DNA of 64,000 nt, from positions 124,001 to 188,000 of the forward strand of contig NZ_FQXA01000002.1 of the NCBI RefSeq assembly GCF_900129835.1, written 5' to 3'. A program made the position numbers and the translations under genes. Every line of letters begins with the position of its first letter. Positions within the stretch are counted from its first letter, which is position 1. The notes under the pieces were generated by a model. That model was given only the letters and a program-made list of their open reading frames with translations. It ran no database searches and had not been told where the DNA came from. This stretch comes from Stutzerimonas xanthomarina DSM 18231 (GTDB taxonomy: Bacteria > Pseudomonadota > Gammaproteobacteria > Pseudomonadales > Pseudomonadaceae). Positions 36,217-47,804 of the stretch are shown in pieces.

Positions 36217-38172
36217 TCAGCGGCCGGCGCTAGCTGCCTGATCGAGCATCTGCCGCACCTTGCCGAGCAGTTCGCCAATCTGGAATGGCTTGATCACCAT
36301 GTCCATTCCGGTGTCGAGGAAGCGATCTCGGCGCACCGCGTTTTCGGCGTAACCCGTCATGAACAACACGGGCAGAGCAGGGCGATGCGTTCGCGCTGCG
36401 TCAGCAAGCTCCCGCCCGGAAAGCTGAGGAAGCCCCACGTCGGTCAACAGCAGATCGACGCTGGAGTCATCCTGCAGCACCGACAGCGCTGTAGTGACGT
36501 CGCCGGCTTCGCTGCATCGGTAACCAGCCTCGCTCAGCATCTCGGCGACGAGCATGCGCACCGCTGGCATGTCCTCGACGATCAATACATGCTCGCCGTT
36601 ACCCTGTGGCATGTCGTTGACCGAGGCGATTGTCGTTTCGCTTGCAATGGCTGCGGGTAACACCAGCGAGACTTCCGTGCCTTCGCCGACGACGCTGCTT
36701 AGCCTGGCTTCGCCCCCCGATTGCCGGGCGAACCCGTAGATCGATGACAACCCCAGGCCTGTGCCCTGGCCAAGCGGCTTAGTGGTAAAGAAGGGATCGA
36801 AGACCTTGCCAAGCACGTCCGGTGCGATGCCGGTACCGTCATCCTCCACCGTTAGCACCACATAGTTTCCGTCAGTCAGGTCCGCATCGCCATCGGAGCG
36901 CAATGCCGCGGTGCGGATGGTGATATTGCCGCCACGGGGCAGGGCGTCGCGTGCATTGATAACCAGATTGAGGATGGCGCTTTCAAGCTGGTTGGCATCG
37001 ACCTGCGCCACCGCGCCTTGATCGGACAGTTCCAGATTCAAGGAAATATGCTCGCCGATGGTTCGCTGCAACAGCTCCTCGAGCGAGCGGATCTGCTCGT
37101 TGAGGTCGGCCGGGCGTGCATCCAGCGGCTGTTGGCGGGCGAAGGCCAACAGCCGGTTGGTCATCGACGCGGCGCTGCGCGCCGAATTCAGCGCGGTATC
37201 GGCAAAACGCAGAACCGCATCGGTGCGGCCTTCATACAGGCGCTTCTTGAGCAGTTCGATGCCGGTGATGATGCCGGTCAGCAGGTTGTTGAAATCGTGC
37301 GCGATGCCGCCGGTCAGCTTGCCCAGCGAATCCATTTTCTGCGCCTGCATCAACTGCCCTTCGGTGCGGACGCGCTCGGCGACTTCGCGGGCAAGCTCGT
37401 TGTTGGCATTGTCGAGCTGCTGGCGCTGCGAGCGCTCGCGTTGGCGCTGCTCGGTGATGTCTTCGATGACCACCAGTCCGAGCTCAGACGCTCGGTAAGG
37501 CGATACCTGCCACTTGGTTTCGCGGCGCTCGCCAGCCACTTCCAGGATCAAGGTGTCTTGCCAGCGAGAACCGCTTGCCAAGCTCTCTCGCAGCGTCTGC
37601 AGCTTTGTGTCCTGCCCGTCGGCAAGCCTCGCGGCCAGTGCGGTTGGCTCCGGTTGGTCCCCCAGCAGCAGGGACAGTGCACGGTTGCTTTCGTGAATTT
37701 GCAGCTGCGGGTCGATCACTGCAATCGGCGCCGCGACCTGAGAGAAGATCTCACGGAAGCGCGCCTCGCTTTCGCGCAACGCATGCTCGGTGTCGCGTAC
37801 ACGCAACAGCGTGCGCAAGGTGGCAAGGAGCACGTCCGGATCGACCGGGTGAATGAGGTAGGCGTCGGCGCCCGCATCCAGGCCGGTAATGATATCGCCG
37901 GTCTGGATCGAGGCTGCGGAGACATGGATGACCGGCAACAGCCGCGTGCCGTCATCGGTCCGCAGCTGGCGCACGATGTCGAAGCCGCTCATGTCAGGCA
38001 GGTTCACGTCGAGAATCAGCGCATCGATCGTGCCGGTGGCGATCAGGCCCAGTCCTTCGGTACCCGTTCCGGCTTCGAGCACGGCATAACCGTGGCGCTC
38101 CAACACCCGGCGTATTGCGTAGCGCGTGGCTGCGTTGTCGTCGACGACCAGCAGCTGGCTCTTATGCTCCAT
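36217..38172 (-). CDS. Receiver-PAS-histidine kinase-receiver hybrid protein
   Basis: A 651-residue cytoplasmic protein, last gene of the stressosome operon. Order: receiver (LLVVDDNAATR; Asp in ALILDVNLPDM), PAS (~135-250), coiled coil, HisKA with LTGGIAHDFNNLLTGI, ATPase domain (NLVINARDALPRGG, DDGTGIAPDVLG, GTGLGLSSIYG), and a C-terminal receiver (LLLTDVGLPQLSG). It overlaps the upstream kinase gene by 11 bp, so the two are translationally coupled and probably work as a pair. Start at ATG 38172. No DNA-binding output domain, so a further partner is needed for a transcriptional effect. Confidence 0.88.
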   Translation of the reverse strand: MEHKSQLLVVDDNAATRYAIRRVLERHGYAVLEAGTGTEGLGLIATGTIDALILDVNLPDMSGFDIVRQLRTDDGTRLLPVIHVSAASIQTGDIITGLDAGADAYLIHPVDPDVLLATLRTLLRVRDTEHALRESEARFREIFSQVAAPIAVIDPQLQIHESNRALSLLLGDQPEPTALAARLADGQDTKLQTLRESLASGSRWQDTLILEVAGERRETKWQVSPYRASELGLVVIEDITEQRQRERSQRQQLDNANNELAREVAERVRTEGQLMQAQKMDSLGKLTGGIAHDFNNLLTGIITGIELLKKRLYEGRTDAVLRFADTALNSARSAASMTNRLLAFARQQPLDARPADLNEQIRSLEELLQRTIGEHISLNLELSDQGAVAQVDANQLESAILNLVINARDALPRGGNITIRTAALRSDGDADLTDGNYVVLTVEDDGTGIAPDVLGKVFDPFFTTKPLGQGTGLGLSSIYGFARQSGGEARLSSVVGEGTEVSLVLPAAIASETTIASVNDMPQGNGEHVLIVEDMPAVRMLVAEMLSEAGYRCSEAGDVTTALSVLQDDSSVDLLLTDVGLPQLSGRELADAARTHRPALPVLFMTGYAENAVRRDRFLDTGMDMVIKPFQIGELLGKVRQMLDQAASAGR

Positions 38173-39019
38173 CAGTGCGCTCCGTGGAAATCGCGACAGG
38201 AATGACGACGTAGAACGTCGATCCCAGTCCCGGCTTGCTCTCGACGCCAACGCGACCGCCGAGCAGTTCGGCGAAGCGTTTGCACAGCGACAATCCCAGG
38301 CCGGTACCACGCAGACGCTTCTGCAGCGGTGTATCGATCTGTACGAAATCTTCGAACAGATTGCCGTGCATGTCTTCCGGAATGCCGATGCCTGTGTCCG
38401 TCACGGCGAAGCGCACCTCGCCGTCACCTTCGGCACAGGCAGAAATGCGCACCTCGCCGTTCTGCGTAAACTTGAGCGCATTGGAGATAAAGTTACGCAG
38501 AATCTGCGCGAGCTTTTTGTCGTCCGTGAAGAGCCGCGGCATGTCGTGCGGCTCCTCGAAAATCAGATCCACCGCGTTGGCATCGACGATCGGGCGAAAC
38601 ATTCCGCGCAGCGCCGCGAAGAGGTCAAACATGTCGAACCAGGCGGGCGATATGGTGATGCGGCCTGCCTCGATCTTCGCCAGATCGAGCAAGTCGTCAA
38701 CCATGTCACTGAGTTCGCTGGCCGCGCCACTGATGAACAGCACCTGCTTATGCTGTTCCGGGCTGAGCGGGCCGTCCAATTCGTCGCTGAGCAAACGGGT
38801 AATGCTGCGAATGGACCCCAGCGGCGTACGGAACTCGTGGCTCATGTAGGACAGAAAACGGCTTTTCAGATCCGAGGCCTGTCGCAGCTGCTCGGCCTGG
38901 GTGTCGAGTTCGGCATACAGCGCGAGGACGCCCTGGTTGGTTTCCTCGAGCTCGCCGCGCAGCAGGTCGTTCTCGCTGCGCAGCTGTTGGATGAGGTCGT
39001 TCGTGTTCGAGTCAGTCAA
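38162..39019 (-). CDS. Soluble sensor histidine kinase linked to the stressosome
   Basis: A 285-residue cytoplasmic kinase: N-terminal coiled coil (~5-45), HisKA with His in SYMSHEFRTPLGS, ATPase domain (NFISNALKFTQNG, DTGIGIPEDM, GTGLGLSLCKR). There is no input domain, so activity is presumably set by a partner, likely RsbT or the upstream modules. A TTG at 39019 was chosen as start: GGAGG lies 7 nt before it and it overlaps the previous gene's stop by 8 bp. It feeds naturally into the hybrid kinase downstream, whose N-terminal receiver could be its phosphate acceptor. Confidence 0.85.
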   Translation of the reverse strand: MTDSNTNDLIQQLRSENDLLRGELEETNQGVLALYAELDTQAEQLRQASDLKSRFLSYMSHEFRTPLGSIRSITRLLSDELDGPLSPEQHKQVLFISGAASELSDMVDDLLDLAKIEAGRITISPAWFDMFDLFAALRGMFRPIVDANAVDLIFEEPHDMPRLFTDDKKLAQILRNFISNALKFTQNGEVRISACAEGDGEVRFAVTDTGIGIPEDMHGNLFEDFVQIDTPLQKRLRGTGLGLSLCKRFAELLGGRVGVESKPGLGSTFYVVIPVAISTERTDGA

Positions 39020-40016
39020 CGATTGCCTCCAGCGCAATCACCATAACGGTCACGTCATCGCGGCCACGACAGAAGTCGCGATGCAGCAGCGCTGCAATAA
39101 TGGCCGGGTGACGATGGACAAGACCAGGGTAGTCGCGCAGATCCCAGCGTGACTGAAGTCCATCGCTGTACATGACCAGAAGCTGCGCCGAGTCGACCGG
39201 GTAGTCGAATGCAACGGCCTTGCGAAACTGAGAGCCCACGATGCCTGGGTGAGATGCCATGCCGCGACTCTTTTCGGCAGTCACCAGGCTGGCTCCGATG
39301 TTGCCGATACCAGCGAAACGCACCTTGCCAGCCTCATACAGCGCGATAGCTGCTGCGCCACCGCGTGAGCCGGTCATCGCCTGGTGCATGTCGAGCATAT
39401 TGATCGTTGGGTCGGCAAACGAGTCCTCGGCAAACGCGGCAGCGCCGGCCAGACCGGCTTGCTCAGCATCTTCGCCATGGCCGATGCCGTCGATGATCAG
39501 CGCACTGAGCCGTGAACCATCGACAGCCAGATGCCAGACATCGCCGCAGGCCGGATCGTTTTTAAGAGAATGCTGGCTAACGCCGAACCGAAGTGGCAGG
39601 GCCGAAACATGGCGAGGGTACAGCTGCGCCAGCACCACCGATCCTTTGTTATCGGAGTGGATGTCGAACAGCTGAGCCTGGCGCGTGAGCGCACCGAGCC
39701 CTGTGCCCTGAGTGCCGCCGGTGGAAAAACCATCGGCCAGGCACACATTGGGATTGAAACCGGCGCCACGGTCGATGGCGATCAGCTCGATTCCCTGTCC
39801 GCTCTGAGCTGGTATCGCGCGCAGGTGCAGAGACCCATGATGCGCATGCTTGAGCAGGTTGGTGGCCAGCTCCGTTGCAACCAGTGCGACGCGTCCGGCA
39901 TCGGTTTCATCGAATGCAAGTTCGACGGCGAGCGATTGCGCGACGCGGCGCGCATGGCCGACCTGGGTTTCGTCTTCGATCGCCAGAACGATGGTCATCG
40001 AGCCCTGAATATTCAT
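39012..40016 (-). CDS. rsbX: Anti-sigma-like ATPase/SpoIIE phosphatase fusion (RsbX-like)
   Basis: About 334 residues. The N-terminal half is an RsbW/RsbT-type ATPase fold (VALVATELATNLLKHAHHG, DRGAGF, GTGLGA); the C-terminal half is a PP2C/SpoIIE phosphatase (IIDGIGHGEDAEQAG, YSDGLQ, GRDDVTVMVI with metal aspartates). In stressosome operons this protein dephosphorylates RsbS and RsbR and so resets signalling. Starts at ATG 40016 in an ATGA overlap with rsbT; ATG 40022 is also possible. Gene symbol given by position and domain likeness to RsbX. Confidence 0.87.
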   Translation of the reverse strand: MNIQGSMTIVLAIEDETQVGHARRVAQSLAVELAFDETDAGRVALVATELATNLLKHAHHGSLHLRAIPAQSGQGIELIAIDRGAGFNPNVCLADGFSTGGTQGTGLGALTRQAQLFDIHSDNKGSVVLAQLYPRHVSALPLRFGVSQHSLKNDPACGDVWHLAVDGSRLSALIIDGIGHGEDAEQAGLAGAAAFAEDSFADPTINMLDMHQAMTGSRGGAAAIALYEAGKVRFAGIGNIGASLVTAEKSRGMASHPGIVGSQFRKAVAFDYPVDSAQLLVMYSDGLQSRWDLRDYPGLVHRHPAIIAALLHRDFCRGRDDVTVMVIALEAIVD

Positions 40017-40417
40017 GACCATTTGGTAATACTGATGCGTGTGCCGATGCCAGGAGTACTGTCGAGTTCGAAGGCATCCACCAGGCGCTTGGCACCGGTC
40101 AGTCCAAGCCCAAGGCCGCCACCGGAAGTCCAGCCGTCAGTCAACGCCAATTTGATGTCGGCGATGCCCGGGCCCTCATCACGGAAGGTCAGCCGGATGC
40201 CAGTGCGCGGGCCTTCGTCCACAACTTCCCAGTCCATATCGCCACCGCCGCCATAAACGACGGTGTTACGGGCCAGTTCGCTCACTGCAGTCACCAGCTT
40301 GGTCTGGTCGATCAAGCGCATGCCACAGTCCTGGGCCAGCTTGCGAACTGCCTGGCGGGCCAAAACCACATCCTGCTCGATCCGTACCGGTGTGCTGCCG
40401 CTGTCGCGCACGGTCAT
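40013..40417 (-). CDS. rsbT: Stressosome serine/threonine kinase RsbT
   Basis: A 134-residue GHKL kinase: N box SELARNTVVYGGGGDM, G1 box DEGPGI, G2 box GGGLGLGLTGAKRL. RsbT binds the RsbR-RsbS stressosome, phosphorylates both on stress and is then released to activate a downstream partner. Start overlaps the rsbS stop by 4 bp (ATGA). In Bacillus the released partner is the phosphatase RsbU; no rsbU exists here, so the histidine kinase genes downstream are the likely targets, by inference. Confidence 0.92.
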   Translation of the reverse strand: MTVRDSGSTPVRIEQDVVLARQAVRKLAQDCGMRLIDQTKLVTAVSELARNTVVYGGGGDMDWEVVDEGPRTGIRLTFRDEGPGIADIKLALTDGWTSGGGLGLGLTGAKRLVDAFELDSTPGIGTRISITKWS

Positions 40418-40776
40418 CTAGCGGCCATCCGTTTATGCAGCAGCTGCATGCCTCTTTCGACATTGAGCGCCGTGCTGACGCCCTGCAGCGTCAGGCTCAG
40501 CTCGACCAGCGTGATCGCTACCGCCGGCTGCATGCCGACCACGACGGTCTCGGCATCCATGATGCTGGACAGACCCGAGATCGAGCTGATCATGCGACCG
40601 ATGAACGAATCGACCATGTCAAGCGCCGAGATGTCGATCAGCACCGCTTTGGCGGACGTCGAGTTGATGCGCTCGGCGAGATCGTCCTGGAGTGTCATGG
40701 CCAGTTGGTCATGCATGTCGACCTGAATGGTGACGAGCAGGAACTCGCCCATTTGCAGTATTGGGATGCGCTCCAT
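40414..40776 (-). CDS. rsbS: Stressosome scaffold protein RsbS (STAS)
   Basis: A 120-residue single STAS domain. VLIDISALDMVDSFIGRMIS contains Ser57, which matches the RsbT-phosphorylated Ser of Bacillus RsbS (Ser59). It forms the core of the stressosome with RsbR. Overlaps rsbR by 1 bp (TAATG) and rsbT by 4 bp, indicating tight coupling and fixed stoichiometry. Confidence 0.92.
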   Translation of the reverse strand: MERIPILQMGEFLLVTIQVDMHDQLAMTLQDDLAERINSTSAKAVLIDISALDMVDSFIGRMISSISGLSSIMDAETVVVGMQPAVAITLVELSLTLQGVSTALNVERGMQLLHKRMAAR

Positions 40777-41627
40777 TACACCGCCTTACTGACAGTCAGT
40801 CCGGAGCGACGCAGCGCAAGCGCCAGCGCATCGGCGAGAGAGGCCTTGGTGACGATGCCCTGAAGATCGAGACCCAGATGCACGATGGTCTGCGCAATCT
40901 GCGGACGTACGCCGCTGATGATGCAGTCAGCGCCCATCAGGCGGATGGCCGTAACGGTTTTAAGAAGGTGCTGCGCGACCAAGGTGTCCACGGTTGGCAC
41001 GCCGGTGATGTCGATGATGGCGATTTCCGAACCGGTGTCTACGATGCGTTGCAACAGCGACTCCATCACCACTTGGGTGCGTTGCGAGTCGAGGGTGCCG
41101 ATCATCGGCAGCGCGAGCACGCCGTCCCACAGCTTGACCACTGGTGTAGAGAGCTCCAGCAATTCCTCCTGCTGACGTTTGATGACCGATTCGCGGGACT
41201 TCTGGAAGGTGCGTACCGTGTGCAGGCCAAGTTGGTCGATCAGCTCGGATAACGCCCAGAGTTGTTCGGCCAGCACCGCCGGCTCATCGGCGTATTCAGC
41301 TTGCAACAGCGGCATCAACGGCCTTTTAAACGAGAAGATGAAACCGGCGGTTTGCTGCGAATCGAACCCCAGCAGCACGCGGCTGTGCGACAGCTGTTCG
41401 AGGAACTGGCGCATGCCGTCCCAGCTTCCGGCGCGCAAATCAGTGGATTCGGCCTGGCCTGCACCTTCGATCAGTAAACGGATGAACTCGGCCGTCTGCC
41501 GGCGAAACTCGTCAACCTTGACGTTGCGGTACATGCCACTGGCTTCGAGTTCACGAGTCCAGCTGTCGAGCAGCTCATGCTCTTTCTTGGCGATTGCGTT
41601 GAAGGTGCGTTGTTGCAATGAGGCCAT
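40776..41627 (-). CDS. rsbR: Stressosome sensor RsbR
   Basis: A 283-residue protein with a helical N-terminal sensor (~1-150; LLDSWTRELEASG resembles the RsbRD-type N-domain) and a C-terminal STAS (~160-275). In the STAS, Thr215 of DITGVPTVDT aligns with the RsbT phosphorylation site Thr205 of Bacillus RsbRA; the position of the second site (Thr171) appears to be Ser181 in TLDSQRT. It should sense stress through the N-domain and form the stressosome with RsbS. First gene of the operon; AGGA precedes the ATG. Confidence 0.9.
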   Translation of the reverse strand: MASLQQRTFNAIAKKEHELLDSWTRELEASGMYRNVKVDEFRRQTAEFIRLLIEGAGQAESTDLRAGSWDGMRQFLEQLSHSRVLLGFDSQQTAGFIFSFKRPLMPLLQAEYADEPAVLAEQLWALSELIDQLGLHTVRTFQKSRESVIKRQQEELLELSTPVVKLWDGVLALPMIGTLDSQRTQVVMESLLQRIVDTGSEIAIIDITGVPTVDTLVAQHLLKTVTAIRLMGADCIISGVRPQIAQTIVHLGLDLQGIVTKASLADALALALRRSGLTVSKAV

Positions 41628-42132: not shown

Positions 42133-44250
42133 ATGCTGGTCGGTAGCTATAACGACACCCTGGTTTTCTTTTCGTTTGTTGTTGCCGTACTGGCGTCCTA
42201 CACCGCGCTGGATATGGCCGGTCGGGTTGCGACGTCAACAGGCCGCGCGGCGCAATGGTGGTTGCTTGGCGGCGCGTTCTCGATGGGGCTGGGCATCTGG
42301 TCGATGCACTTCATTGGCATGCTTGCCTTCAGCCTGCCGATTCCGCTGGGTTATGACCCATCGATCACCGCGGGCTCGCTGGTCCTTTCGATTGGCGCTT
42401 CTGCGCTGGCGTTATGGCTAGTCTGCCAACGCAAGCTGCCGTGGAATCGTCTGATGCAGGGTGCGCTGCTGATCGGCGCAGGTATCTCGGCGATGCATTA
42501 CAGCGGGATGGCCGCGCTGCGCATCCAGCCGGGTATCGTCTATGACATTGCATGGCTGGCCGCCTCGGTGTTGGTTGCGTTCATGGCGTCGGGCGCTGCG
42601 CTATGGCTGGCCTTCCGGCTACGCGCCAATCTGCAGCATGTGCGCGCCTGGCGCTGCGCCGCCGCGCTGGTGATGGGGCTCGCCATAGTCGGCATGCACT
42701 ACACCGGCATGGCCGCTGCGGGCTTTCCGGAGGGCAGCTTCTGCGGTGCGGCTAACGGTGTTGACAGCAACTGGCTGGCGTTGCTGGTCATCGTGCTGAC
42801 CCTCGCAGTGCTGGCGATCACCTTGATCGTTTCGGTGCTTGATGCGCGCCTGCAGGCTCGCACCTCAGTGCTAGCCAGCTCGCTGGAAAAGGCCAACGGC
42901 GAACTGCTGCAGCTGGCACTGCATGACAACCTGACCCGCTTGCCGAACCGTCTGTTGCTCGAGGACCGGCTCAGCCAGGCGCTCAAGGTGGCGCAACGTG
43001 AGCAGTCCCGCTTTGCGCTGATGTTTATGGACCTGGACGGCTTCAAGGCGGTGAACGATGCCTACGGTCATCACTTGGGCGACCAATTGCTGATCAGCGT
43101 GACCGGCCGACTTCGCGCCTGTACTCGCGCCCAGGACACGTTGGCGCGCCTCGGTGGAGATGAATTCGTATTGCTGGCAGCGATTGATGATCCGGACGAC
43201 GCAGCCACTCTGGCAGCGCAACTGGTGCAGTGCGTCAGCGAGCCGTTCATGCTCTCGCGCTACACCCTGAGCGTTTCGTTGAGCATCGGTATCGCGGTCT
43301 ACCCGGGTGACGGCGAGACCGAGCGCGATCTGCTGTTGCACGCCGACGCGGCGATGTATCACACCAAGAGTGCGGGGCGAAACGGCTACAGTTTTTTCGA
43401 GGCCTCGATGAACGCCAATACGGTCGAGCAATTGCAGCTATTGCATGACCTCCGGTTGGCTGTGTCCAACGGTGAGTTGCGGTTGCACTACCAACCCAAG
43501 TTCGAAGCACCGGCCGGGCCAGTACGAGGCTTCGAGGCTTTGTTGCGCTGGCAGCATCCGCAGCGTGGTTTGCTGTCACCGGACGCCTTTCTGCCGCTGG
43601 CGGAAAAAACCCGTCTGATCATCCCGATGGGCAAGTGGGTGCTGAACGAGGCCTGCCGGCAATTGCGGGAATGGCATCTGCAGGGCTTCAGCCATTGGAC
43701 TGTAGCGGTGAACCTTTCAGCGGTTCAGTTCGAGCAACCCGACCTGGTCGGCACGGTGACCGACGCGATCGAGCTTCACCACATCCCGCCGCAGATGCTC
43801 ACCATCGAGGTGACCGAAACCGTGGCCATGCGCGACCCGGAGTCCACCATCGATACGCTGGAGAAGCTCACACAGCTCGGTATCAAGGCATCGATTGACG
43901 ACTTCGGAACGGGCTACTCGAGTTTGCTCTACCTCAAGCGCTTGCCGGCCAGTGAGTTGAAAATCGACCGTGCGTTCGTTAAGGAGATGAGCCCTGGCAA
44001 TGAAGATTCGGTCATCGTTTCGGCCATCATCGCTTTGGCCAAGGCGCTGGGCTTGGAGGTTGTAGCAGAAGGCGTGGAAACGGCTGAGCAACAGGCATTT
44101 CTTACCGGCCTCGGTTGCGAAACGTTGCAAGGTTTCCTGTTGGACCGACCGATGGTGCCGGAGCAGATTCTGCAACGCGCCGCTCAGGCACAGCTCGGAC
44201 CTTCGGCATTCGTCCGAACCAATGCTGAGTGGGTCGCTGAACCGAGCTGA
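42133..44250 (+). CDS. MHYT-GGDEF-EAL c-di-GMP protein (MucR-like)
   Basis: A 705-residue membrane protein. The N-terminal MHYT sensor has seven helices and the three repeats MHFIGM, MHYSGM and MHYTGM, proposed to bind copper and sense gases or redox state. Then GGDEF (LGGDEF at Gly341, intact) and EAL (Glu468 in FEALLRW; NLSAVQF, TETVA, DDFGTGYSS all present). Both catalytic sites look intact, so it could make or break c-di-GMP. P. aeruginosa MucR, which drives alginate synthesis, has the same architecture. It diverges from the stressosome operon. Confidence 0.93.
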   Translation: MLVGSYNDTLVFFSFVVAVLASYTALDMAGRVATSTGRAAQWWLLGGAFSMGLGIWSMHFIGMLAFSLPIPLGYDPSITAGSLVLSIGASALALWLVCQRKLPWNRLMQGALLIGAGISAMHYSGMAALRIQPGIVYDIAWLAASVLVAFMASGAALWLAFRLRANLQHVRAWRCAAALVMGLAIVGMHYTGMAAAGFPEGSFCGAANGVDSNWLALLVIVLTLAVLAITLIVSVLDARLQARTSVLASSLEKANGELLQLALHDNLTRLPNRLLLEDRLSQALKVAQREQSRFALMFMDLDGFKAVNDAYGHHLGDQLLISVTGRLRACTRAQDTLARLGGDEFVLLAAIDDPDDAATLAAQLVQCVSEPFMLSRYTLSVSLSIGIAVYPGDGETERDLLLHADAAMYHTKSAGRNGYSFFEASMNANTVEQLQLLHDLRLAVSNGELRLHYQPKFEAPAGPVRGFEALLRWQHPQRGLLSPDAFLPLAEKTRLIIPMGKWVLNEACRQLREWHLQGFSHWTVAVNLSAVQFEQPDLVGTVTDAIELHHIPPQMLTIEVTETVAMRDPESTIDTLEKLTQLGIKASIDDFGTGYSSLLYLKRLPASELKIDRAFVKEMSPGNEDSVIVSAIIALAKALGLEVVAEGVETAEQQAFLTGLGCETLQGFLLDRPMVPEQILQRAAQAQLGPSAFVRTNAEWVAEPS

Positions 44251-46044: not shown

Positions 46045-47766
46045 TCAACGAGCCAGCAATACGATTACCGCGATCATCAACAGCAACGACACAGCTTGCC
46101 AGAACAGCACCGGGTTGCGCTCCAGAAGTGGCGGGCGAGCCTTGTTCAGAAAAGCCTGGTTCGGCTGGCGCAGCTCGAAGACGAACTCCGACAGATCCTC
46201 GTAGCGTTTGTAAGGGTCCGGATGCAGCGCCTTGCGCAGTACGTCATCAATCCACGCCGGTACGCCGCGGTCGTGCTCGCGGATGGAACGATAGCTGAGC
46301 TTGTTCTGCGCCGCGCGGGTGCGGCAGCTGGCAACTTGGGTGCCGTAGGGCAGGGCACCGGTCAGCATCTGGTAGGTGATCACCGCCAGCGAAAACATGT
46401 CGGAGCGGCTGCTACCGCTCTCGCCGAGGAAGTACTCCGGCGCCGTGTACTGGGCCGTGCCCAACAGTTCGTTGCGCTCGATGGGCGACGCCACTTCCAT
46501 GATGCCGGCCACCCGCGTGGATCCGAAGTCGATGATTTTGACCGTGCCGGTGGCGTCGATCATGATGTTGGCCGGGCGCAGATCCTGATGCAGCATTTCC
46601 AGCCGGTGGAAGGCGCGAACGCCCTTGGCGATTTGCTCGACGATGCCGCGCACGGTTTCCAGATCCGGGCGGGGATGGTCGATCATCCATTGCGCCAGCG
46701 TCTGGCCTTCGATGTATTCGCTGACGCTATACAGGTAGTTGCGTTTGCGGGTCTGCAAGCATGGCTTGGCCACATGCGCGCTGTTGATGCGTCGCGCCAC
46801 CCAGTCTTCCGTGAGAAACCGCTCCAGGTACTGCACGTCTCGTTGCAGGTCCATCGAGGGGGCCTTGATGATCACCGGCGCTTGGCTTTCGTCGTCGGTT
46901 GCGAGATACACATGGCTGCGGCTGCTGGCGTGCACCTCGCGCACGATGGTGTAGCCGTCGAATGCCGCGCGGGCTTCGAGAATGGGCGGGAAGGGCAGTT
47001 CGGTCAACTGCTGCAAGAGTTCGTCGGCAGCCTGCAGCGGCAGCGCGTCGATACGCAGGATTTGCACCGTCAGGTTGTCGTCGCTGCCCTGTTCCAGCGC
47101 CTGGGCGACGATGGCCCGTGCGGCTGCGTCCAGATCATCTGCGTAGTGAGCGATGGCACCGAGCATCGACGGTGCGCTGACGTACTCGTATACGCCATCG
47201 GTGGCGAGGATAAAGGTGTCGTCCACGTCGACCGGTTCGGCGCGATAGTCCAGATCCAGCTGTGGGTGGATGCCCAATGCGCGGCTCAGGTAACTCTTGT
47301 CTTCCGAGACCCACATTCGGTGGTCATTGGTCAGTTGCTCCAGCGCAGCGCCTTGGACGCGGTAGATACGCGAGTCGCCCGCATGAAAGAGGTGCGCCGT
47401 GGTCGATTTGATGACCATCGCGCTGAAGGTGCAAACATAACCACGATCCGGATCGAAGCGATAGGGGCTCTGTTGGCCCTGGGCGTGCAACCAGGAATTG
47501 GTTGCCATCAGCACTCGTTGCGCCGAGGTTTTCACTGACCAGGCATCGGAGGTGCAGTAGTAGTCAGCGAAAAAGCCACTGACGGCTGATTCGCTGGCAA
47601 TGTGACTGACGGCGCTGCTGCTGATGCCATCCGCCAAGGCAATGGCGATGCCCTTGCTGCTCAGTTGTGGCTCTTTCGGAATGTAGACGCCGTGGAAGTC
47701 CTGGTTGGTTTCCTTGGCGCCCTTGTCGGTGTGTTGGCCCACCGAAACCTTGAGTTGACTGCTCAT
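46045..47766 (-). CDS. Bifunctional PP2C phosphatase/serine-threonine kinase
   Basis: A 573-residue protein. N-terminal PP2C domain (~1-235; GQHTDKGAKETNQD, ADGISSS, HAGDSRIYRV, ATDGVYEY, DNLTVQ). Middle Hanks-type kinase (~265-530; catalytic HQDLRPANIMI and KIIDFGSTRV; Lys near IIKAPS). C-terminal membrane helix (~548-570). It is thought to phosphorylate and dephosphorylate proteins at the inner membrane. In P. aeruginosa the homologue lies next to nirBD, and its target in nitrate/nitrite assimilation is not known to me. Starts at ATG 47766; a GGGTT repeat tract ends 14 bp upstream. Last gene of the nirBDC cluster. Confidence 0.9.
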   Translation of the reverse strand: MSSQLKVSVGQHTDKGAKETNQDFHGVYIPKEPQLSSKGIAIALADGISSSAVSHIASESAVSGFFADYYCTSDAWSVKTSAQRVLMATNSWLHAQGQQSPYRFDPDRGYVCTFSAMVIKSTTAHLFHAGDSRIYRVQGAALEQLTNDHRMWVSEDKSYLSRALGIHPQLDLDYRAEPVDVDDTFILATDGVYEYVSAPSMLGAIAHYADDLDAAARAIVAQALEQGSDDNLTVQILRIDALPLQAADELLQQLTELPFPPILEARAAFDGYTIVREVHASSRSHVYLATDDESQAPVIIKAPSMDLQRDVQYLERFLTEDWVARRINSAHVAKPCLQTRKRNYLYSVSEYIEGQTLAQWMIDHPRPDLETVRGIVEQIAKGVRAFHRLEMLHQDLRPANIMIDATGTVKIIDFGSTRVAGIMEVASPIERNELLGTAQYTAPEYFLGESGSSRSDMFSLAVITYQMLTGALPYGTQVASCRTRAAQNKLSYRSIREHDRGVPAWIDDVLRKALHPDPYKRYEDLSEFVFELRQPNQAFLNKARPPLLERNPVLFWQAVSLLLMIAVIVLLAR

Positions 47767-47779
47767 GCGCTCGAAATTT

Positions 47780-47804
47780 AACCCAACCCAACCCAACCCA
47801 ACCC
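47780..47804 (-). repeat. GGGTT pentanucleotide repeat (5 copies) before the kinase start
   Basis: On the minus strand (GGGTT)5 sits 14-38 bp upstream of the PP2C-kinase ATG, in the position of the ribosome binding site. Pentamer tracts change copy number by slippage and could alter spacing or translation. Copy number is exact: 25 bp. Confidence 0.85.

Follow-up and report, generated by a model that had tools for sequence, protein, structure and literature searches.

Among the stressosome systems described so far, that of Vibrio vulnificus consists of rsbR, rsbS, rsbT and a phosphatase gene followed by a two-component system, with no SigB cascade; its RsbR bears a haem globin, its RsbX is a single-domain phosphatase, and its downstream module has a predicted action on cyclic diguanylate (c-di-GMP), as passages of PMC9237108 and PMC10014275 relate. 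Passages of the latter also describe similar phenotypes for Vibrio rsbRSTX mutants and downstream kinase mutants, and the V. brasiliensis stressosome is the subject of PMC4976288, to judge from its excerpts. The survey of globin-coupled RSTX modules in PMC9237108 lists HisKA/REC outputs, considers most downstream proteins to be without RsbU_N and, in one of its passages, proposes that RsbT phosphorylates the sensor kinase where RsbU_N is missing. In Bacillus subtilis, the pathway is made up of RsbRST, RsbU, RsbVW and SigB, together with RsbX. RsbT activates RsbU by ordering its helical linker, according to passages of PMC12143880, which also mention stressosome operons encoding histidine kinases that bear RsbU_N domains, and MtG of Moorella thermoacetica (RsbU_N-GAF-GGDEF), where control of the RsbT type reaches an output other than SigB, a diguanylate cyclase. 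Excerpts of PMC8115616 describe RsbK-RsbM-RsbY of Bacillus cereus, a stress pathway in which a histidine kinase feeds a regulator of the receiver type. In this study, a stretch of 64,000 nucleotides from Stutzerimonas xanthomarina DSM 18231 (contig NZ_FQXA01000002.1, positions 124,001 to 188,000; hereafter the window) was analysed for an operon that an earlier note, made from the letters alone, had read as a stressosome whose RsbT, once freed, acts on a histidine kinase. We observed that the operon is real, complete and widespread and leads from a stressosome to a histidine kinase (HK); the earlier inference is strengthened, with RsbT and TX, the product of the fourth gene, as candidate partners of the kinase. 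What is new is a helix motif in HK, an RsbT paralogue fused before this helix in sister operons, and a next gene that begins with a receiver, being REC-SpoIIE in three actinomycetal loci.

The operon comprises six minus-strand genes running from 41627 down to 36217, with overlaps in gene order of 1, 4, 4 or 10, 8 and 11 bases (the 8-base overlap of TX and HK is counted from the HK start whose ribosome site is the better one), and its content of guanine and cytosine is 0.612, that of the window 0.606. Its features are as follows.

40776..41627, minus strand: rsbR, 283 amino acids, RsbRD_N sensor domain plus STAS domain (Pfam; PDB RsbR chains).
40414..40776, minus strand: rsbS, 120 amino acids, STAS scaffold (PDB RsbS chains; genome counts).
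40013..40417, minus strand: rsbT, 134 amino acids, putative GHKL switch kinase (Pfam; motif tally; ATPase-domain tree).
39012..40022, minus strand: TX, RsbT-like ATPase (about residues 1-134) and predicted RsbX-type PP2C phosphatase (about 142-331) (Pfam; AlphaFold2; fold matches).
38162..39037, minus strand: histidine kinase HK, HisKA plus HATPase_c, sensorless, probable start TTG at 39019 (Pfam).
38858..38989, minus strand: match to the 44-residue linker profile within HK (profile search).
38944..38903, minus strand: linker core ETNQGVLALYAELD, inside the HK linker.
36217..38172, minus strand: hybrid REC-PAS-HisKA-HATPase-REC, ATG at 38172, last gene of the operon (Pfam).

Comparatively, the window shares with V. 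vulnificus the four stressosome genes and the two-component system behind them, and differs from it in the RsbRD_N domain of its RsbR, the fusion of ATPase and PP2C in TX, the sensorless kinase with its helix motif and the REC-PAS-HK-REC hybrid. The likeness to Vibrio modules claimed in the earlier note holds for the gene series and not for the sensor, where RsbRD_N replaces the haem globin; no globin family was matched on the window RsbR at E<=0.01 in Pfam, and the solved chain 7o0i matches its residues 134-280 only, both at the sequence level. The window shares RsbR, RsbS, RsbT and a phosphatase of the RsbX type with B. subtilis, including the equivalent catalytic and phosphorylated residues, whereas the genome has neither an RsbU_N protein nor a SigB/F/G-class factor over the cut-off, and the output here is a histidine kinase. 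To our knowledge, no RsbRST stressosome lies upstream of RsbK-RsbM-RsbY in B. cereus. The output of M. thermoacetica, as described in the passages cited above, carries RsbU_N, unlike the window kinase with its different helix motif.

All parts of a stressosome were recognized in the proteins themselves. RsbR combines an N-terminal sensor with a STAS domain that has two phospho-acceptor positions, Ser181 and Thr215, aligned with 175 and 209 of 7b0u, and it matches the PDB RsbR chains 7o0i at 4e-34 (STAS part only) and 7b0u at 4e-32. RsbS is a single STAS domain with a correctly placed, conserved Ser57, and solved RsbS chains match it at 1e-29. RsbT retains the N-box E/N, DxGxG and GxGxG intact, as a putative GHKL Ser/Thr kinase; its best PDB sequence matches were the anti-sigma F factor SpoIIAB (2e-4), and no RsbT chain was matched in that search. 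The N-box, G1 and G2 residues are kept in nearly all the tallied rows (50 T, 46 X and 16 H, with 3 deviating cells). The phosphatase half of TX resembles RsbX both in sequence and in its predicted fold, as a feedback phosphatase would: the AlphaFold2 model reached a predicted local distance difference test (pLDDT) of 90.3 and a predicted template modelling score (pTM) of 0.91, and its fold matches, found with the whole of TX and all of them PP2C domains, include RsbX 3w40 and the stressosome phosphatase 3zt9, which is closest to the PP2C half of TX and which we take to be a Moorella protein. The complete stressosome set, the overlapping genes and the two kinases downstream given in the earlier note are borne out, with genes, phospho-sites and ATP motifs intact; its fourth protein, an ATPase/SpoIIE phosphatase, is indeed a fusion, the phosphatase now being specified as RsbX-type and the ATPase as a second RsbT-like domain. 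In L098, TX reads as two overlapping frames (175 and 163 amino acids), which may reflect a split gene or an error in sequencing. A second, separate RsbT-PP2C phosphatase fusion was noticed in L085, L087, L088 and L089, and no other rsbT was found in those loci.

RsbU and sigma-B, both absent according to the earlier note, were likewise absent from genome searches: RsbU_N (PF08673) gave 0 matches at E<=0.1 in the own genome, only B. subtilis among 14 controls being positive, and the SigB/F/G-class model TIGR02980 gave five genome matches at E<=0.001, none above the 234-bit cut-off and the best at 136. An RsbU_N domain was not found on the window HK either, by Pfam or by the genome profile search. 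Two strong SpoIIE phosphatases are encoded elsewhere in the genome, and these might use other STAS partners.

The kinase has no sensor domain in Pfam and opens with a helix bearing the motif ETNxGVxALYAELD, which precedes the DHp domain with its phospho-acceptor His67 (numbered from 39037), and it stands in an R-S-T-TX-HK operon. A linker profile of 44 columns, built from 14 linkers and applied at E<=1e-4, picks out this one site alone in the own genome, even with the threshold relaxed to E<=1. RsbS was detected (E<=1e-10) in 29 of 398 phylum genomes and, in a 260-genome sample from another class, in 9; the linker profile matched 17 of the former, once each, all among the 29 and at most 2.5 kb from rsbS, and four of the latter, all among the nine, with no match in RsbS-negative genomes (0/369 and 0/251). 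The hypergeometric chance of this co-occurrence is 2e-22 for the phylum and 7e-7 for the class, with seed rows of the profile included (12 of the 17 phylum matches and 1 of the 4 class matches) and the genomes related, so that the zero matches in 369 and 251 genomes are the cleaner statement. Among the best 80 loci listed by a motif scan of named genomes, 11 carry the motif, and all 11 are stressosome operons in the same gene order (Stutzerimonas, Pseudomonas, Caldimonas, Paraburkholderia, Rhodospirillaceae, Cylindrospermum, Isosphaeraceae, Paractinoplanes, Actinomadura and two Herbidospora); the motif is absent from the other 69, one of which (L133) has RsbS and RsbT in the retrieved DNA.

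Conservation points in the same direction. In 29 kinases chosen by RsbS neighbourhood, whose rows also had to pass the motif expression (the set excluded L070 and L077, of the other HisKA type, and the truncated L213), the motif segment ranks 5th of 261, beside the H-box and N-box segments, with 0.50 bits as compared with 0.42 and 0.46, respectively, and a mean of 1.32. No kinase at that operon position with an RsbS above 140 bits lacked the motif. A former ranking, by which the motif was the best conserved kinase segment (1/262), was withdrawn, as its rows had been chosen by the motif and the fairer set gave the rank above. Judged from these alignments, the helix motif is about as conserved as the catalytic boxes, and in both samples it is found only in stressosome operons.

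Moreover, of the 19 operons with the motif that were located through RsbS, 10 encode an RsbT-like domain ahead of the linker, as do 9 of the 11 named loci located through the motif. In the ATPase-domain tree, 16 fused domains fall into a single clade (100/98) that lies with RsbT and is separated from the TX ATPases by a 100/96 branch; L068, L126, L127, L129 and L130 (weak matches), L080 (missed by the script) and L212-L215 (fetched later) stand outside that tree. The same tree led us to reject the fused domain as a copy of the TX ATPase, and likewise a window RsbT split off from a fused kinase, the window RsbT being placed among RsbT proteins. In L068 and in the actinomycetal L126, L127, L129 and L130, the fused domain keeps its first half and, by eye, is without DxGxG or GxGxG. 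These four actinomycetal loci resemble the window in gene order and in combining an RsbT-like domain, the linker motif and a histidine kinase, and differ in that the motif is doubled, at a spacing of exactly 18 residues (five helix turns), and that REC-SpoIIE follows instead of the hybrid kinase (L126, L127 and L129 by Pfam). The RsbT-linker unit sits on the other HisKA type in L070 and L077, and HisKA_2-type kinases carry an RsbT-like domain, with no motif, in L214, L215 and L080 (by Pfam in L214 and L080, by eye in L215). A model of the fused kinase of L128, a Paraburkholderia nodosa protein of 469 residues, predicts a single helix, 162-250, spanning motif and phospho-His, its pTM being 0.48 and its domain packing unreliable.

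In a concatenated tree of R, S, T and TX, the unfused kinases make up one clade of 14 rows that includes the window (92/75), with L211 as a further unfused case nested among fused kinases (98/90); the motif and the fused domain are thus separable. A fused state that was ancestral and lost in the window clade was first assumed and is not upheld, for the tree fits either a loss or a domain never had (92/75), and only L211 is a nested loss. Outside the motif group, RsbT-like N-termini on outputs are weak and suggestive only, except that of L218 (34.8 bits with the RsbT profile): Vibrio maerlii P0242 scored 13 bits, L085 18 and Ferrimonas L090 4, the best of 91 control kinase N-termini scoring 3; hhalign gave probabilities of 22-25% to the pair from Vibrio and Ferrimonas and of 74-80% to L085; and the GGDEF-EAL proteins of L087 and L088 scored 14 bits with an RsbT-type profile. 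Such scores say little, because the same profiles match the kinases' own HATPase domains at up to 27 bits. A literature search of limited depth brought up no printed RsbT-kinase fusion, from which absence from print does not follow.

The genes and their order, the catalytic residues, the RsbX-type fold, the specificity and conservation of the linker, the fusions and the receiver-first next genes, as read from sequence and predicted structure, suggest a scheme in which we infer every binding, phosphorylation and direction of effect. At rest, a complex of RsbR and RsbS through their STAS domains would hold RsbT, and perhaps TX too. On a signal at RsbRD_N, RsbT would phosphorylate Ser57 of RsbS and Ser181 and Thr215 of RsbR and then depart. 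Drawing on the analogy with RsbT on the RsbU linker, we consider it probable that an RsbT-family switch so freed acts on HK via the helix and that HK phosphorylates the hybrid: the freed ATPase would bind the ETNxGVxALYAELD helix, which runs into the DHp helix, and switch the activity of HK, and HK would phosphorylate the first receiver of the hybrid, which would relay the signal. The PP2C half of TX would dephosphorylate RsbS and RsbR, resetting the complex. A receiver stands at the start of the next gene in all six loci tested by Pfam (the window, L122, whose gene order was taken from the motif-locus annotation, L071, L126, L127 and L129), which supports a phosphate flow from the kinase to the next gene; the hybrid is the presumed phosphate acceptor of HK. 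The majority of the related operons likewise have a next gene that opens with a receiver. No separate receiver-first gene was seen in the fetched loci of L070 and L077.

It is the domain fusions and the linker motif that carry the connection of RsbT with the kinase; the gene order, from which the earlier note had drawn it, is insufficient alone. The fused RsbT paralogues and the stressosome-specific helix have strengthened that proposal, and in one respect it has to be widened: TX carries a second RsbT-like ATPase and is also a candidate switch. Several observations weigh against the scheme. The linker is not universal, being missing from 12 of the 29 phylum and 5 of the 9 class genomes with RsbS. 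The fused domain comes on top of a separate RsbT, which the fused relatives retain. In V. vulnificus, passages of PMC9237108 give no positive interaction results for RsbT and the downstream kinase VvD1, which lies outside the kinases compared here. Lastly, among the operons fetched by RsbS, the motif occurs in 19 of 24 with TX and in 0 of 12 without it (two of the 12 incomplete; Fisher 5e-6, relatedness ignored), and since RsbT is present also in operons without the motif, this favours TX as the partner.

A less likely alternative is that the TX ATPase domain, and not RsbT, switches the HK helix, with TX coupling the reset phosphatase to HK and RsbT only phosphorylating RsbS and RsbR. All 19 RsbS-fetched motif operons have TX, and the c-di-GMP proteins of L083 and L216, GGDEF-EAL proteins directly behind TX, open with a helix that faintly resembles the motif, scoring 9.5 and 7.2 bits (E 0.012 and 0.06 in a set of 217 proteins), which is suggestive only; they rank 1 and 3 among proteins without the motif, rank 2 being a partial match in an unrelated kinase. 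Nevertheless, the domain fused in cis to the linker groups with RsbT and not with the TX ATPase, and its closeness to RsbT favours RsbT, the restriction of the motif to TX operons TX. Furthermore, five of the 24 TX operons are without the motif, namely L080, L214 and L215 (locus incomplete), with HisKA_2-type kinases, and L083 and L216, and the whole pattern is confounded with relatedness. In RsbU, the known case of RsbT on a linker, the partner is RsbT, as reported in passages of PMC12143880.

Compared with these two, it is considerably less likely that HK itself is recruited to the stressosome, in fused cases via the RsbT-like domain, or that RsbT phosphorylates it on Ser/Thr. Phosphorylation of the sensor kinase is what a passage of PMC9237108 proposes where RsbU_N is absent, and the kinase-fused domains that by eye lack ATP motifs (L068 and the four actinomycetal loci) suit docking on STAS domains better than catalysis. 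The window HK has no fused domain, however, and its recruitment would need another contact. Least probable of all is an ordinary kinase signalling helix, of the kind common before DHp domains, with only operon order joining a kinase and a stressosome that may act separately: many stressosome operons do have motif-free outputs, but the motif occurs in none of the 369 and 251 RsbS-negative genomes, is conserved nearly as well as the catalytic boxes, and is present even where the fused domain is absent.

The operon is not confined to the window. RsbS is present in 44 of 56 genus genomes (E<=1e-10), 40 of them at >=85% identity and four at 63-65%, and the surroundings of 28 phylum loci besides the window, 12 further genus loci and 8 class loci were fetched. 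Named homologues of TX and HK, among the best 120 of 2679 and 3003, respectively, belong to Stutzerimonas and to numerous Pseudomonas species, and this arrangement of genes also occurs in Cyanobacteria, Planctomycetota and Actinomycetota. The earlier note knew of no described case in this Pseudomonas group; the route is not special to the group: related operons extend to at least four phyla, and HisKA/REC stressosome outputs are already in print, as listed in passages of PMC9237108. A limited literature search brought up no study of a Pseudomonas or P. stutzeri stressosome.

Several other genes were noticed. An MHYT-GGDEF-EAL protein (42133-44250, plus strand) is divergent from rsbR; a GGDEF-EAL protein lies near the operon in only 3 of 13 genus loci (L098, L099 and L102), an inconstant neighbour that, as a component of the system, is weakly supported at best. 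A fusion of a PP2C phosphatase domain and a Ser/Thr protein kinase domain (46045-47796, minus strand) accounts for a weak SpoIIE match and adjoins genes resembling, by eye, a nitrite reductase and a formate/nitrite transporter. Two further STAS plus SpoIIE sets occur in the own genome (C9:87817-89759 and C10:85383-86281), and these resemble the HsbA/HsbR- and RssB-type systems.

Passages of PMC9237108 leave open by what route stressosomes act on downstream proteins lacking RsbU_N, and a 14-residue helix found only with stressosomes, together with natural RsbT-kinase fusions, supplies defined residues and constructs for that question. We put forward, tentatively and at somewhat less than even confidence, that stressosomes in at least four phyla drive histidine kinases through one dedicated helix, many lineages adding an RsbT copy on the kinase, which may sometimes only dock where the ATP-binding motifs are missing. 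If true, Ser/Thr partner switching would be joined to a His-Asp phosphorelay in one conserved unit; this would account for an operon that is widespread and, in Stutzerimonas, common, and would suggest a signal route in bacteria without the Bacillus pathway.

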